This document shows positions 8,192-48,546 of a DNA stretch of 48,546 nucleotides, piece after piece. The translations under genes were made by a program, and so were the position numbers. The first letter of the stretch is position 1. Each line of letters opens with the position of its first letter. The notes under the pieces were generated by a model, which saw only the letters and a program-made list of their open reading frames with translations, ran no database searches and was not told where the DNA came from. Source of the DNA: an uncultured Caulobacterales bacterium (GTDB taxonomy: Bacteria; Pseudomonadota; Alphaproteobacteria; Caulobacterales; Maricaulaceae); the NCBI GenBank assembly GCA_938001915.1, contig CALLBD010000036.1, positions 1-48,546 of the forward strand, written 5' to 3'.

Positions 8192-10435
8192 ATGCGGGCC
8201 ATGAAATTAACCAGAAAAATAATATTGGACGAGGTGAAGACCCGTCCTGATTTTTACGACAATAAAAAACTCGCCCGTGCGCTTGGCGTGAAAGGTGATG
8301 ACCGCCGTGAGCTCAGACAGCTCTTGCGGGCGATGGTCGAGGATGGGGCGCTCAAGAAATCCGACCGCAAGACCTTCCGCGAGGCGGATGCCTTGCCCGG
8401 CGTGATGGTGATTAAAGCCACGCGTCTTGATGATGGCGACCTGATGGGTGAGCCCGAGAATTGGAAAGGCGACGGCGCGCCGCCGCAGCTCCTCATCCGC
8501 GATATGGGATCGCGAGAGAAAAAGCGCGGGAAACGCGACCAACGCGAAACGCTAAAAATTGGCGACCGCGCGCTTTGCCGTATTAAAGTCCGCGAGAACG
8601 GCGAGGCCGTGGCCTCCGTCATGAAAAAGCTGGGCAGCGGGCCTACGGCGCATCTCGGCGTACTCTATCAAGGCGGGCGGGGGTGGCGCATTCAGCCGGT
8701 TTCTAAAAAGGCGCGCCATGACTATAAGCCCTCGAAAATTCCTGAGGGCGCAGAAGATCAAGACCTCGTTTGGTTCCGCTCCTCGCGGCGCAATCAAGGC
8801 GATTTGCGCATTGCAGATATTACGGAAATCATCGGCTCGGCCAAAGGCGGTAAATCCGCGAGCCTGATTAGCTTGCATGAGAATGACATTCGCGTCGCCT
8901 TCCCCGAAAAGGTCATTGAAGAAGCCAAGGCGCTCAAGCTGCCCGAAATCGAAGGCGCACGCGAAGATATTCGCGACCTCCCACTCATCACCATTGACCC
9001 TGTGGATGCTAAAGATTTTGACGATGCCGTCTTCGCCCATCCAGATAAAAATGAGAACAATAAAGGCGGCTGGGTTGTTTGGGTTGCCATCGCCGATGTA
9101 TCAGGCTTTGTGACGCCTGGTTCTGAGCTGGACAAGGAAGCGCGCGAGCGCGGGAACTCTGTCTACCTCCCCGACGTCGTCGTCCCCATGCTACCGCATG
9201 AGCTATCTTCGGACCTCTGTTCCTTGCGCCCCCATGAAGACCGCGCCTGTATGGCGGTACGTATGGTGTTTGATAAAACGGGCACGAAGATAAGGCATAA
9301 ATTCAAACGCGGTATGATGCGCAGCCACGCCCGCCTGACCTATCAACAGGCGCAAGACGCAGCAGACGGTAATGCTGGCGAAGCCGCTGAGCCCGTGCTC
9401 GACATTATCCAAGATATATACGCCGCCTATGCGGTCCTAAAGAAAGGCCGCGACGCGCGCGCGCCGCTTGCGATTGAGCTACCCGAACGCCGTGTCCATA
9501 TTGACGAAGACGGCAAAGTCAGCGGCATTACACTCCGCGATAGATTTGACGCGCATAAACTCATCGAAGAATTTATGGTGCAGGCCAATGTCTGCGCTGC
9601 GGAGAGCTTGGTGGAAAAGAAATCGCCGGGCATTGTCCGCCTGCATGACGCGCCTGATCGCGAGAAGCTACAAGGCCTGGTCGAGTTCCTGCCCGTGCTC
9701 GATTTGAAATTCTCGCTGGGTGAACGCGTGACAACCTCCCGCCTGAACAAGCTCCTCACGCAAGCTAACCAAAAAGACCTCACCGAAACCGTTGGCATGG
9801 CCGTTTTACGCAGCCAGTCCCAAGCCGTATATAGCGCAGACAAAGGGGGGCATTTTGGCTTGAACCTCACCGATTACGCCCATTTCACCTCACCCATTCG
9901 GCGCTATGCGGACCTGATTGTCCACCGCGCGCTCATTAGCGCCTTTGGCTTTGGTGACGACGGCCTAGATAAGGAAAGCACCTCACGCCTGAAAGAGATT
10001 GCGGAACATATCTCTGCGACGGAACGCAAAGCCATGGTGGCGGAACGCGATGCGAAGGATCGCTATATCGCGGCTTATCTGGCGGACCGCGTGGGTGGAG
10101 TCTTCAATGCGCGCATCACGGGCGTAACAAAATTTGGATTATTCATAACACTCGATGAAACGGGCGCAGATGGCCTCATTCCAGCGCGCAATCTGGGATA
10201 TGAATATTTCGCCTATAATGAAAAGAACCGCGCCCTGATCGGTGTTGAAAGCGGTGATACTTATCGCTTCGGCAGACCCATTAAAGCCAAGCTTGAAGAG
10301 GCCACTCCCATAACAGGTGGATTGATCTTTGAGATGGTCAGTAAACCTGAAAAAGGCAAACCACCAAAGAGACATCACCGCAGCGGGGGCGGGCCAAAAT
10401 CACGCGGGGCAACGCATCGACGCAAGCGGCGTTAG
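8192..10435 (+). CDS. rnr: Ribonuclease R
   Basis: Processive 3'-5' exoribonuclease of the RNB family that degrades structured RNA and takes part in rRNA and tmRNA quality control. Domains in order: an N-terminal winged-helix region (about 1-80), cold-shock-like domains, the RNB catalytic domain with the acidic metal site in IDPVDAKDFDDAVFA (about 266-280), and a C-terminal S1 domain (GVFNARITGVTKFGLFITL). A basic, Arg/Gly/Lys-rich tail follows (RHHRSGGGPKSRGATHRRKRR in part). The 747 residues match the family. The first ATG is 8192 and a second in-frame ATG at 8201 is an equally possible start. The gene is followed by a gene-free stretch of about 850 bp carrying element A. Confidence 0.96.
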   Translation: MRAMKLTRKIILDEVKTRPDFYDNKKLARALGVKGDDRRELRQLLRAMVEDGALKKSDRKTFREADALPGVMVIKATRLDDGDLMGEPENWKGDGAPPQLLIRDMGSREKKRGKRDQRETLKIGDRALCRIKVRENGEAVASVMKKLGSGPTAHLGVLYQGGRGWRIQPVSKKARHDYKPSKIPEGAEDQDLVWFRSSRRNQGDLRIADITEIIGSAKGGKSASLISLHENDIRVAFPEKVIEEAKALKLPEIEGAREDIRDLPLITIDPVDAKDFDDAVFAHPDKNENNKGGWVVWVAIADVSGFVTPGSELDKEARERGNSVYLPDVVVPMLPHELSSDLCSLRPHEDRACMAVRMVFDKTGTKIRHKFKRGMMRSHARLTYQQAQDAADGNAGEAAEPVLDIIQDIYAAYAVLKKGRDARAPLAIELPERRVHIDEDGKVSGITLRDRFDAHKLIEEFMVQANVCAAESLVEKKSPGIVRLHDAPDREKLQGLVEFLPVLDLKFSLGERVTTSRLNKLLTQANQKDLTETVGMAVLRSQSQAVYSADKGGHFGLNLTDYAHFTSPIRRYADLIVHRALISAFGFGDDGLDKESTSRLKEIAEHISATERKAMVAERDAKDRYIAAYLADRVGGVFNARITGVTKFGLFITLDETGADGLIPARNLGYEYFAYNEKNRALIGVESGDTYRFGRPIKAKLEEATPITGGLIFEMVSKPEKGKPPKRHHRSGGGPKSRGATHRRKRR

Positions 10436-10666: not shown

Positions 10667-10696
10667 AAAACATAATCCACGCTTTCAAAAGCTGTG
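10667..10696 (+). promoter_or_regulatory. Conserved 30-nt block upstream of RNA A
   Basis: This block begins AAAACATAATCC and ends AAAAGCTGTG. It matches the corresponding block upstream of RNA B at 27 of 30 positions, at exactly the same distance from the scaffold. It could be the promoter of the RNA or the end of a mobile element. No canonical sigma-70 hexamers with 17-bp spacing are visible. Confidence 0.55.
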
Positions 10697-10708
10697 ATAT
10701 ATTGAGCC

Positions 10709-10956
10709 TGTTCTTTCAAACATAGGACAGGTAGACGTCACCTACTGGTTTGAGAGACGGTGGGCCTGAGCATTCAGTGATGACACGCTGGACTGTGCCG
10801 GGGCTTTAGGAGTGAGAGCCGATGCCTAGGGCCAGAGTTGCCCTAACTGGTAGGACAGACGGGCCGCTTCTTCAAAAACCATCGCCGCAGATAGTGCAAT
10901 TTTTGCTCTGCAAAAAATGTACGGTGTGGATTTGGCTGTAAGTCAATTCCACGAGT
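10709..10956 (+). ncRNA. Structured RNA, copy A (scaffold shared with copies B and C)
   Basis: No protein frame explains this segment, and it folds like copies B and C. P1 pairs 10713-10721 (CTTTCAAAC) with 10748-10756 (GTTTGAGAG). P2 pairs 10762-10766 with 10802-10806 around a conserved core (CTGAGC ... TGTGCCGGG). A 7-bp hairpin with a 6-nt loop lies at 10773-10792. Most paired bases differ from copies B and C yet remain paired. Two copy-specific hairpins follow, at 10895-10921 (11 of 12 pairs) and 10927-10951 (10 of 11 pairs). It does not resemble RNase P RNA, tmRNA, 6S or SRP RNA as I know them. A HEARO/omega-RNA assignment is possible but untested. Confidence 0.75.
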
Positions 10957-11051
10957 CTTCGCGTAAAACAAAACTTCTTCTACCCCTTGGTATTCCATCG
11001 GGGAGACACATCTGCGGGCACGTCCTGTTTGATATATAACCTTCGGCTGAC
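10957..11051 (+). repeat. Element A, 3' module, first copy
   Basis: The module runs from CTTCGCGTAAAACA to the hairpin CCTTCGG. It is nearly identical to 25909-26003 on the minus strand and recognisably related to 48101-48183 on the minus strand (shared TTCGCGTAAAACA and TTGGT-CCATCG). It contains a hairpin of CCCCTTGG against CCATCGGGG with a TATT loop. Confidence 0.85.
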
Positions 11052-11210
11052 CTCTCGATAGGCAGTGAGGAATTCAACTTGCCTATAACTCTAACATTGC
11101 ACACCGAACGACTTAGCCGTTCGGCGCTTCGCTGCAATCGACTCACTGGGTCGATTGCGGACGTTTCGCGTCCCTCGGGAAGACACATCTACGGGCACGT
11201 CCTGATTTGA
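11052..11210 (+). repeat. Element A, hairpin region and second, shorter 3' module
   Basis: This part contains a CGAACG/CGTTCG hairpin near 11105-11123 and an 8-bp hairpin of CAATCGAC against GTCGATTG near 11134-11156. A second copy of the 3' module lacks its middle (11163-11210, GTTTCGCGT then TCGGGAAGACACATC). The same order is found in element B. The element ends about 80 bp before the Nudix gene start. No credible protein is encoded. Confidence 0.75.
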
Positions 11211-11289
11211 ATTGAAACCTCAGCGCCCCCGCGATGGCGCGCAGCAGCTTTTGCTTGTTTTCAAATCAGTCAAGCGCCATCACGGCTCC

Positions 11290-12042
11290 ATGTCCGATCC
11301 AATTAAAGATTCTGGCCCTATCCTTGTGGGTAAAATGAAAATCACCGAGAATGAGCGGTCAAAACGAAAAGCTCTAACGCGCGCGCCCAAACCCCGATTG
11401 GCGTCGACCTTGGTTCTGACATGCGGGTCTGGTGAAAATTTGAAAATCCTCATGGGGCAGCGCTCAAACCGACATGATTTCATGCCAAATGTCTATGTAT
11501 TTCCAGGCGGCCGCGTCGACCGTGCGGATAGCTACGCGAAATATGCGGGCCGCCTCTCCGCCCGGACCGAGCGAATATTGGAAGCCGCCTACACCCCCCG
11601 CCGGTCCCAAGCGATTGTCCTAGCCAGCGTAAGGGAGACCTGGGAGGAAACAGGTCTCATGCTGGGCAAACGATCTGACGCCCACCGCAATCTCACCCAT
11701 GCGAGCTATGACGCGTTTCGGGAAACCGGACAGCTGCCCGATTTATCCGGTATTGAAGTCTTTGGCCGCGCGGTGACACCGCCGCACCGCCACAAGCGCT
11801 TTGATGCCTGGTTTTTCGTCAAACAACTCGGGGAAAGTCCGCCGCCGAAGATTTCCGATAGTTCAGAGTTGTTGAATGTGGGCTGGTTCACATTTGATGA
11901 GATTGAAAGCCTCGAGACACAGCGCGCAACCGACATGATGCTGCAAGTCTTGAAGCGCTATCTGAAAGCAGACCGTCCCCCTGAAACCATATTTTACTCC
12001 CGCGCAATCCGAGGTGAGTTCAAAATGCTGCAATTCCCGTAG
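11290..12042 (+). CDS. Nudix hydrolase
   Basis: The protein carries the Nudix signature in the form ASVRETWEETGLMLG, with the REtwEEtG core that binds the metal and hydrolyses a nucleoside diphosphate linked to another moiety. A family-like beta sheet precedes it (YVFPGGRVDRAD). Length from the ATG at 11290 is 250 residues. The frame is open to 11212, but the extra 26 residues begin right at the edge of element A and look noncoding. The C-terminal part with TPPHRHKRFDAWFFVK resembles the CoA-pyrophosphatase-like or NUDT19-like subgroup, so a CoA-ester substrate is a guess. It lies 87 bp upstream of rpmG on the same strand. Confidence 0.88.
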   Translation: MSDPIKDSGPILVGKMKITENERSKRKALTRAPKPRLASTLVLTCGSGENLKILMGQRSNRHDFMPNVYVFPGGRVDRADSYAKYAGRLSARTERILEAAYTPRRSQAIVLASVRETWEETGLMLGKRSDAHRNLTHASYDAFRETGQLPDLSGIEVFGRAVTPPHRHKRFDAWFFVKQLGESPPPKISDSSELLNVGWFTFDEIESLETQRATDMMLQVLKRYLKADRPPETIFYSRAIRGEFKMLQFP

Positions 12043-25715: not shown

Positions 25716-25779
25716 CAGCCGAAGGTTAGATATCAAACAGGACATGCCCGCAGATGTGTCTTCCCGATGGACGCGAAAC
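25716..25779 (-). repeat. Element B, second (shorter) 3' module
   Basis: On the minus strand it reads GTTTCGCGTCC, CATCGGGAAGACACATC and CAACCTTCGGCTG-like sequence. It is the short form of the module at 25909-26003, lacking its middle part, and matches 11163-11210 in element A. Confidence 0.8.
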
Positions 25780-25908
25780 GCCCGCAATCGACCCAGTGAG
25801 TCGATTGCAGTGTAGCGCCGAACGCTCAGCCGTTCGGTGTGCAGTGTTAGAGATATAGGCATGTTGAATTTTCTGCCGCCTCTGTTGAAACTACGGTTTC
25901 AACTAAGT
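25780..25908 (-). repeat. Element B, hairpin-rich linker
   Basis: Contains three hairpins: 25785-25807 (8-bp stem, CAATCGAC against GTCGATTG), 25818-25837 (7-bp stem, CCGAACG against CGTTCGG) and 25884-25903 (8-bp stem, GTTGAAAC against GTTTCAAC). The linker of element A has the first two in the same order. An 82-residue minus-strand frame (25614-25862) runs through here but is mostly repeat sequence and is not called. Confidence 0.75.
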
Positions 25909-26003
25909 CAGCCGAAGGCTAGATATCAAACAGGACGTGCCCGCAGATGTGTCTTCCCGATGGAATACCAAGGGGTAGAAGAAGATTTGTTTTACGCGAA
26001 GAC
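25909..26003 (-). repeat. Element B, 3' module, first copy
   Basis: Almost identical to 10957-11051 of element A in inverted orientation. On the minus strand it runs from CTTCGCGTAAAACA through CCCCTTGG-TATT-CCATCGGG to the AGCC-TTC-GGCT hairpin. Confidence 0.88.
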
Positions 26004-26266
26004 AAAATGCCAACCCAGTTCCGAAATCGCTTACGCGCTTTCGGTTCCTTGCCATTTGATTATCAATCAAATGGACGGCGTCATCTGCGGCGATGGTTTT
26101 TGATGCAGCGGCCAGTCATAATCCCCACAGGTCATGCCATTAGACAAGGTGGTCGGCTCTCACTCCAAAAGTCCCGGCACACACTCAGCTCTCACACCAA
26201 GTCGCTCAGACCCATCGTCCTTCAGACGGCAAGCGAGGCCTCACCTGTCCTATGTCTGAAAGAACA
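26004..26266 (-). ncRNA. Structured RNA, copy B
   Basis: This is the same scaffold as copy A on the opposite strand. P1 pairs 26254-26262 (CTTTCAGAC on the minus strand) with 26219-26227 (GTCTGAAGG). P2 pairs 26209-26213 with 26169-26173. The 7-bp, 6-nt-loop hairpin is 26183-26202. Copy-specific hairpins are 26052-26074 (perfect 10-bp stem) and 26021-26044 (9 bp around one mismatch, GTAA loop). Their sequences are unrelated to those in copy A although they occupy the same place. No protein frame accounts for it. Confidence 0.75.
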
Positions 26267-26278
26267 CGCCTAGTGTGA

Positions 26279-48047: not shown

Positions 48048-48183
48048 TAGGCATAGCGAAACCCTCACCGCCTCCGTTGAAACTAGGGTTTCGATAGGAG
48101 GTAGCCGACTTTAATAAAACGGGACGGCCCGCGTGATCGATTCCGCGATGGGAACCAAAATAGTTAAAATGTTTTACGCGAAA
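48048..48183 (-). repeat. Element C, 3' module and hairpin
   Basis: On the minus strand it shares TTTCGCGTAAAACA, TTGGT and CCATCG with the modules of A and B, then diverges (module proper 48101-48183). The hairpin of GTTTCAAC against a near-complementary GAAAC arm (48077-48096) and the following GGCAT block align with element B at 25857-25903. No second module is seen; the sequence ends at the rpsF-operon terminator. Confidence 0.7.
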
Positions 48184-48546
48184 TAAATCACGCGGCAGCG
48201 GTTTTTGATACACCGGGCGGGGGTCCCGCAGTTTCACCTTCCGGTCATGCACGCCACAAGGGCCGAAACAGTGGTTAGGTGCTTCTTCCCTACCCATGCG
48301 GGGCGTTTCCTACCACCTCACATGAATCCCACATTGCTGCGGTTCTAACGGCCCCGGTTAAGACAAAGCGGTCGCCTCTCGATGTAAAAGTCCCGGCACA
48401 CACCGAGGAGTCACCCTCAGCCGCTCAGACCCACCGTCTTCCGAACCGGTCAATGCAATTTATCGAAGATAAAATGCAAAGCGTGTTTTTACAAAAAAGC
48501 AAAAACACGAAGCGACGTCTCACCTGTCCTACGCTCGAAAGAACGA
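48184..48546 (-). ncRNA. Structured RNA, copy C (5' end cut by the window edge)
   Basis: P1 pairs 48533-48541 (CTTTCGAGC on the minus strand) with 48438-48446 (GTTCGGAAG). P2 pairs 48428-48432 with 48388-48392. The 7-bp, 6-nt-loop hairpin is 48402-48421. Inside P1 are two extra hairpins, at 48482-48509 and 48455-48477, absent from A and B. Between P2 and the 3' module lies an additional structured segment of roughly 100-150 nt (about 48200-48375) with a GGGCCG/CGGCCC stem. It is the longest of the three copies. A 107-residue frame across this region (47974-48297, minus) is not called because it reads through the RNA and the terminator. Confidence 0.72.

Follow-up and report, generated by a model that had tools for sequence, protein, structure and literature searches.

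A covarying structured RNA with a self-complementary loop occurs in tens of copies in Litorimonas-related bacteria, with a small protein gene beside some copies

Introduction

Why should one elaborately folded RNA stand three times in less than 50 kb of a bacterial genome, and what kind of element would multiply in this way? The question is raised by the contig CALLBD010000036.1 of an uncultured Caulobacterales bacterium (assembly GCA_938001915.1), of which a stretch of 48,546 nt, here called the window, was analysed. A preliminary description, made from the letters of the window, had proposed a three-copy family of large structured RNAs (A, 10709-10956 on the plus strand; B, 26004-26266, and C, 48184-48546, both on the minus strand), in which base changes in the helices around a nearly invariant core were read as selection on RNA structure, and had expected many copies per genome. 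To this the present analysis adds a 3′ part of the RNA, a likely pseudoknot, a self-complementary loop, an adjacent protein gene and a likeness of the copies within each genome.

Results

The three copies and the helices listed for them are present at the proposed places (Table 1); the letters of P1 are those given before, and the central hairpin is the helix that we call P3. The extents proposed for A, B and C were too short, because the RNA runs about 130-150 nt past those 3′ ends and the 3′ strand of P9 lies beyond them in all three copies. The ends listed for copy A mark a conserved extent and are putative as transcript ends. Copy C has no 5′ flank and no upstream block because the contig ends there. 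Past the tails of A and B we also observed a second copy of the RNA 3′ end (query positions 295-341), at 11171-11210 on the plus strand and 25725-25771 on the minus strand, respectively; the piece near A stands behind a palindromic unit, and the extra 3′-end piece also matches on its own at G000:C11:122477.

Table 1. Coordinates of the RNA copies in the window, their parts and the genes next to copy A
Feature	Position	Strand	Basis or remark
rnr (RNase R)	8192-10435
Copy A, promoter-like block	10674-10703	+	AATCC 10674-10678, -10-like TATATT 10698-10703; 118-copy consensus
RNA copy A, GTTCTTTC to conserved tail end	10710-11084	+	R1 match 10710-10808, 102.1 bits; 3′ extent, tail end near 11084, by comparison of copies
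A: P1	10713-10721/10748-10756	+	loop inside contains P9-5′ and hairpin P2
A: P9 5′ strand, AGGACAGG	10724-10731	+	5′ strand of putative pseudoknot
A: P2 hairpin	10730-10748	+	self-complementary loop GACGTC
A: P8 5′ strand	10758-10763	+	partner 10879-10884
A: P4	10764-10766/10802-10804	+	around P3 and core GTGCCGG
A: P3 (central hairpin)	10773-10792	+
A: P10	10808-10814 with 10865-10871	+	closes variable domain
A: P8 3′ strand	10879-10884	+
A: P5	10885-10893/11008-11017	+	insert hairpins within 10879-11017
A: P6	10955-10963/10999-11007	+	loop TAAAAC...GGTATTCC
A: P9 3′ strand	11021-11026	+	CGTCCT
A: 3′ tail	11040-11084	+	hairpin GGCTG..CAGT and end motif CTTGCCT
NUDIX protein	11212-12042
RNA copy B	25857-26265	-	R1 match 26167-26265, 99.8 bits; tail end near 25857 by comparison of copies
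B: P9 3′ strand	25932-25937	-
B: P3 (central hairpin)	26183-26202	-
B: P1	26254-26262/26219-26227	-
B: P2		-	loop AGGCCT
B: -10-like element	26272-26277	-	CACACT
RNA copy C	48049-48544	-	R1 match 48386-48544, 77.6 bits; tail end near 48049 by comparison of copies; P10 domain larger
C: P9 3′ strand	48122-48126	-
C: P3 (central hairpin)	48402-48421	-
C: P1	48533-48541/48438-48446	-
C: P2		-	loop GACGTC
C: hairpin insert	48450-48509	-

Read from 132 distinct copies in 21 genomes, the RNA is roughly 400 nt long and has, from 5′ to 3′, the order P1[P9-5′, P2]-P8-P4[P3]-P10 domain-P8-P5[P6]-P9-3′-tail. The loop of P1 holds GGACAGG and the hairpin P2, and P4 surrounds P3 with the near-invariant TGAGC and GTGCCGG; an A-rich linker stands between the P10 domain and the 3′ strand of P8, P5 encloses P6 with its loop TAAAAC...GGTATTCC, and a GTCC near the 3′ end is complementary to the GGAC within P1. 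The core bases GGACAGG, TGAGC and GTGCCGG are identical across 29 aligned copies, in line with the near-invariance noticed earlier. Many copies carry variable hairpin inserts, often small palindromes, in the regions of P2 and P5 (the insert of C in Table 1 and the P5-side loops of A and B among them), and the exact insert form GCRATTYGCGTWAGCGAAATGC is found in 3 of 280 loci, two of the three being the same copy.

The folding energy of copy A is by itself only mildly unusual (z = -2.38), and the case for the RNA therefore rests on covariation. For the first ~100 nt we used a covariance model, R1, made from 29 copies (11 from the window genome, with A and B included and C left out). Its four helices P1-P4 comprise 23 pairs, and 97.2% of the 654 cells are paired; both-side changes number 118, compared with 31.7 in shuffles, and touch 16 of the 23 pairs, while the covariation score is 0.676, compared with 0.280 after shuffling and 0.074-0.167 with the strands slid. 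A loss of covariation once more copies were aligned had been set beforehand as the test that could overturn the structure, and in this 29-copy alignment covariation is still strong. Pairing reaches 98.5% of cells in P1 (both-side changes in 5 of 9 pairs), 90.6% in P2, 100% in P4 and 99.4% in P3, with both-side changes in each of the latter two, and P3 also pairs in 170 of 174 cells of held-out copies (29 of 37 copies measurable). The remaining helices behave likewise. Among the 118 of 132 copies that entered the test, P8 has 50 both-changed cells versus 4.1 in shuffles (maximum 29), a count that alone is informative for this helix since its 3′ strand was located by a pattern favouring pairing letters (99.0% paired, 94.2% when shuffled), and P10 is 91.5% paired with 150 both-changed cells versus 50.2 (maximum 65). 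P5 (94.0% paired) has 44 both-changed cells versus 13.5 (maximum 23) and P6 (80.6% paired) 99 versus 42.0 (maximum 65), with 128 and 145 of 169 copies and 29 and 89 distinct strand pairs entering the two tests, respectively. Covariation in P1-P4, P8, P10, P5 and P6 bears out the proposal that selection acts on RNA structure.

A pseudoknot P9 between GGAC and GTCC is likely. Its four core pairs are nearly invariant, so the assignment depends on the flanking pair, which forms in 107 of 122 copies compared with 90.1 after shuffling (reached in 0 of 2000 shuffles) and in 60 of 74 distinct cases compared with 49.4 (1 of 2000). After P9, a tail hairpin and a CWTGYCT-like end motif recur by eye in many of 123 copies. 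In many copies, too, the GGTATTCC strand is able to pair with the 3′ strand of P6 (in the alignments viewed, one of them with mis-anchored rows), so that two alternative hairpins may compete in the P6 region.

It is also evident that the apical loop of P2 is self-complementary. An exact six-nt palindrome is present in the P2 region of 109 of 131 copies and is of seven kinds, namely GAGCTC, GACGTC, AGGCCT, AGCGCT, GGCGCC, ACGCGT and, in one copy, the overlapping pair GCGCGC/CGCGCG. Counted over distinct 20-nt segments, which begin ~9 nt early in copies having GGACA inside P1, a palindrome is found in 53 of 61 compared with a shuffle mean of 15.7 (maximum 24), although copies related by descent are not independent in these counts; elsewhere in the same RNA, palindromes occur in 2 of 28 and in 7-15 of 98-106 distinct segments. 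Among the 22 copies without an exact palindrome, 19 have GGGGCCTC and 2 have GACGTT, both self-complementary through G-U only, and the sole exception (L122) lacks any self-complementary hexamer. The same holds in held-out copies (40 fetched, 3 of them previously used, 37 left with 16 distinct segments): 31 of the 37 have an exact palindrome and the other six are self-complementary with G-U (four GGGGCCTC, two GGCGCT). Four loop classes coexist among 29 copies of the window genome (14, 6, 5 and 4 copies). A second occurrence of the loop hexamer within the same RNA is seen in 4 of 101 copies, no more often than for other palindromes (23 of 506 tests), which speaks against an internal partner. 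In HIV-1 RNA, palindromic apical loops of six nt mediate kissing dimers, and in oskar RNA they mediate homodimers (PMC7357161); the P2 loop, with the signature of a kissing-loop dimer, would allow two copies of the RNA to pair. The six-nt self-complementary apical loop is shared with the HIV-1 DIS and the other palindromic kissing loops treated there; the HIV-1 DIS is a mechanistic parallel only and is unrelated to the RNA here.

The expectation of many copies holds, as R1 at E ≤ 1e-3 matches 37 places in the 2.6 Mb window genome (34 pieces by nucleotide search). In a scan with stricter filters, in which the top per-genome counts are at least 29, R1 matched 30 of the 137 genomes of the family and 5 of its 19 genera. 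Within the genus, 12 of 18 genomes have matches and six have none, so that at the genus level the system is dispensable. Across a 385-genome sample of the class (E ≤ 1e-4, stricter filters) the window's own genome was the only one with a match, and an exact pattern gave at least 103 stretches in a species collection of 84,980 genomes, all of them, among the matches listed, in Caulobacterales, Litorimonas or Hellea. Two named isolates carry the RNA: Litorimonas cladophorae KCTC 23968, of the same genus as the window bacterium and placed by the NCBI taxonomy in Maricaulales, Robiginitomaculaceae, and Hellea balneolensis DSM 19091. Direct testing is therefore possible. A number of copies stand at contig ends, as expected of repeats that break assemblies, and counts from draft genomes are therefore lower bounds. 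None of the 4227 families of Rfam 15 matches the window at the gathering cut-off; at E ≤ 5, region A gives weak scores only (16.8 and 16.6 bits), eight further loci give one tRNA outside the RNA, and neither tRNA nor tmRNA was found in the window. The RNA is a covarying structured class with tens of copies and without a match to a known family, and for an RNA of such complexity we consider this number unusual.

In 118 copies the 70 nt ahead of the RNA are alike, with a -10-like element and, near -35, a non-canonical TCC. Counted back from TTCTTT, the consensus has TCC at -35 to -33 (77, 96 and 82%), A at -12 (91%) and T at -8 (92%). The block is promoter-like and may drive transcription of each copy. 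No neighbour is fixed. Among the 86 of 132 copies with enough flank (ORFs chosen by length), the flanking ORFs are oriented ++ in 32, -+ in 22, +- in 16 and -- in 16, so that the next ORF is on the same strand in 54 and on the opposite strand in 32, and the downstream ORFs at 16 inspected loci, with the exception of the MPR proteins described below, show little relation to one another. In a comparison that covers part of the other genomes' copies and has no random-locus baseline, 4 of 29 own copies (L052, L055, L059 and L063) retain both neighbours beside the RNA in other species at 60% identity or more; a further copy (L071) has a both-sided match at 44-51%, and 8 more are one-sided at ≥70% over ≥65 aa, which may be chance (L073, which matches through the MPR protein, and L075, which stands at the start of a contig, are excluded from this count).

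One gene pair is split by a copy. Copy A separates rnr from the gene of a NUDIX protein, and the interval between the rnr stop codon and the first base of NUDIX contains the RNA and measures 777 nt in the window genome and 639 nt in G008, compared with -3 to 40 nt without RNA in eight relatives (G001, G002, G003, G005, G014, G015, G028 and G109). The NUDIX end of each distance is the first base that aligned, which belongs to residue 27-39 in the eight genomes and to residue 1 in the window genome (in G008 it was reset to residue 1), so that the difference is understated. As the two genes are adjacent or overlapping in the eight relatives, the RNA was probably gained at the site of copy A. In G017 the NUDIX gene is 826 nt from rnr with no RNA between, and in G015 an RNA copy stands just before rnr instead; no NUDIX gene was found next to rnr in seven other genomes, and the search of G012 gave no rnr.

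Copies resemble others of the same genome. For 77 of 132 copies the nearest neighbour comes from the same genome, compared with 14.3 under shuffled labels (maximum 27). In 15 pairs of copies at corresponding places, a set that mixes both-sided and one-sided neighbour matches, the positional partner is closer than all other copies of its genome only once. Moreover, copies seem by eye to exchange modules. Sequences that track the genome more than the place show the pattern of concerted evolution, and repeated replacement by new insertions would look similar.

Some copies closely precede a small ORF. By eye, the tails of seven copies (L191, L010, L166, L176, L161, L073 and L095) stand just before an ORF beginning MPR, and six of these ORFs, all but that of L095, align as one family with invariant stretches. 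A profile search found the small protein at 13 places in 8 of 137 family genomes. All eight belong to the 12 genomes of the genus that have the RNA, and the protein is in none of its six RNA-free ones. At 12 of the 13 places the protein gene is 3′ of the RNA, and the 13th is cut by a contig end: at 11 places the RNA 5′ domain lies 242-339 nt upstream of the ORF on the same strand, at L220, near a contig end, the RNA 3′ part and tail fall within the 233 bases before it, and at L217 the contig has 13 bases before the ORF, which starts with the same bases as the L010 ORF and may therefore be the remainder of the L010 gene on another contig. In L095, of genus g2, the RNA precedes a different small protein, beginning MPRR, with one relative in the RNA-bearing genome G048. 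Four of the 12 genus genomes that have the RNA (G002, G003, G010 and G015) gave no match to the small protein in the profile search, nor did either protein query match in other RNA-bearing genera, g2 excepted; the protein may thus be dispensable or too diverged there.

The small protein belongs to no family that we could recognize: no match above cut-off was obtained in Pfam, PHROGs or NCBIfam (the last for three proteins), and below cut-off Pfam gave BRR2_plug only (E = 0.013) and PHROGs one row (E = 0.11). Five PDB sequence matches, all to NPC1 (E 0.29-0.35), are taken as chance. The protein is mildly basic (net charge +6 to +8 in four members), and its AlphaFold model, made with four sequences, is helical and of low confidence (pLDDT 71, pTM 0.26). 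Its place behind the RNA is suggestive of a protein that may bind RNA.

Discussion

With a probability of roughly 0.55, we favour the reading that the family is a trans-acting dimeric RNA with a protein partner. The copies would be stand-alone noncoding RNA genes, each apparently driven by its similar upstream block, and their product a compact pseudoknotted RNA of about 400 nt. Two RNAs that share a loop class would most likely dimerise through P2, and the small protein encoded behind one or two copies would most likely bind them in a ribonucleoprotein. Many copies with a common upstream block and no fixed neighbour favour a dosage-dependent pool, whose RNAs would act in trans under common regulation and not on their neighbours. 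Such a pool would rarely spread to new intergenic sites, and its members would stay alike in any one genome, probably through gene conversion, which would exchange modules as well. A bolder version, which we regard as possible but less likely than not, is that interchangeable loops sort the RNAs of one genome into several dimer classes that pair with their own kind only, forming parallel ribonucleoproteins with a dedicated protein and homogenised by gene conversion like rRNA operons, that is, an RNA self-recognition code.

The copies could also belong to a mobile or selfish RNA element that serves mainly its own spread and is mobilised by the small protein or by a host enzyme, the solo copies being its non-autonomous members, in the style of a REPIN-RAYT or HEARO-like population. 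We hold this to be a plausible but clearly less probable explanation, and it overlaps with the preferred trans-acting pool because a domesticated element could be both. Matches range from 0 to 37 per genome within one genus, a copy was probably gained between rnr and NUDIX (777 and 639 nt with the RNA, -3 to 40 nt without), and the protein stands behind a few copies only, all as a mobile element would have it; a published screen likewise classes motifs with multiple copies per genome, often beside transposases and similar genes, as mobile or repeat candidates (PMC11109978). However, the adjacent protein lacks any match above cut-off in Pfam, PHROGs and NCBIfam, the upstream block is conserved as for a gene, and 4 of 29 own copies keep both neighbours beside the RNA in another species. 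RVT_1, the mark of a group II intron or retron, is found in 4 of the 12 genus genomes that carry the RNA and in 2 of the 6 that do not, and is absent from the window genome (89.65% complete) and from L. cladophorae, both copy-rich, and we reject that candidate. A TnpB-type effector is rejected as well, since PF07282 is found in 0 of 18 genus genomes and in 6 of 14 control genomes; PF14239, for an IscB-type effector, is in 0 of 18 genus genomes and also in no control genome.

Two further explanations concern the loop and the downstream gene. The P2 hexamer is palindromic as DNA too, and the apparent exchange of modules between copies would suit a DNA binding or recombination site in place of an RNA kissing loop. 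Yet seven different sequences serve, they are located in the loop of a covarying hairpin, and 21 of the 22 copies without an exact palindrome (19 GGGGCCTC and 2 GACGTT) are self-complementary only through G-U, L122 being the exception, which makes a site acting as DNA improbable. Least probable of all, and very unlikely in our view, is a cis-acting, riboswitch-like leader of the next gene: the next ORF is indeed on the same strand in 54 of 86 copies, and the protein gene stands closely behind a few, but it is on the opposite strand in 32, the downstream ORFs vary at the 16 loci, and without a consistent same-strand downstream gene a leader of the riboswitch type is disfavoured.

Among known systems, HEARO and the omega RNAs of IscB and TnpB are multi-copy structured RNAs, some beside an ORF and many solo. 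The multi-copy pattern here is similar, but the RNA has no Rfam match and its ORF encodes a small protein. OLE, ROOL and GOLLD are large, elaborate bacterial RNAs of poorly understood function, with kissing loops among their homo-oligomer contacts (PMC12286853). The present RNA is likewise large and elaborate, and its self-complementary loop predicts a dimer; it is shorter, however, lacks an Rfam match, occurs in tens of copies per genome, is adjacent to a protein of no known family, and its loop is a self-complementary hexamer of several kinds. One pattern had 0 exact matches in IMG/VR and the inspected neighbours seem chromosomal, so far giving no link to phages. REPINs are nonautonomous elements duplicated by the RAYT transposase (PMC8049555), and the RNA here shares with that system a long-kept within-genome population and a protein gene in one or few copies. 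In contrast to REPINs, it is long and covarying with an upstream block of its own, and membership in the REPIN-RAYT system is rejected because the associated protein has no match above cut-off in Pfam, PHROGs or NCBIfam, and none to a transposase such as RAYT. In the open-licence literature we found nothing that links Litorimonas or Hellea to a noncoding RNA, nor anything on this RNA class, and the main texts of PMC11109978 and PMC8632094 name neither genus.

REPINs are, to the knowledge of the authors who describe them, the sole such within-genome population in prokaryotes (PMC8049555). If the loops sort the RNAs described here into dimer classes and the protein binds them, these RNAs would form a bacterial system of RNA self-recognition and would be another long-lived sequence population of this kind beside REPINs. 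They may represent a new RNA-protein system in Litorimonas-related marine bacteria.
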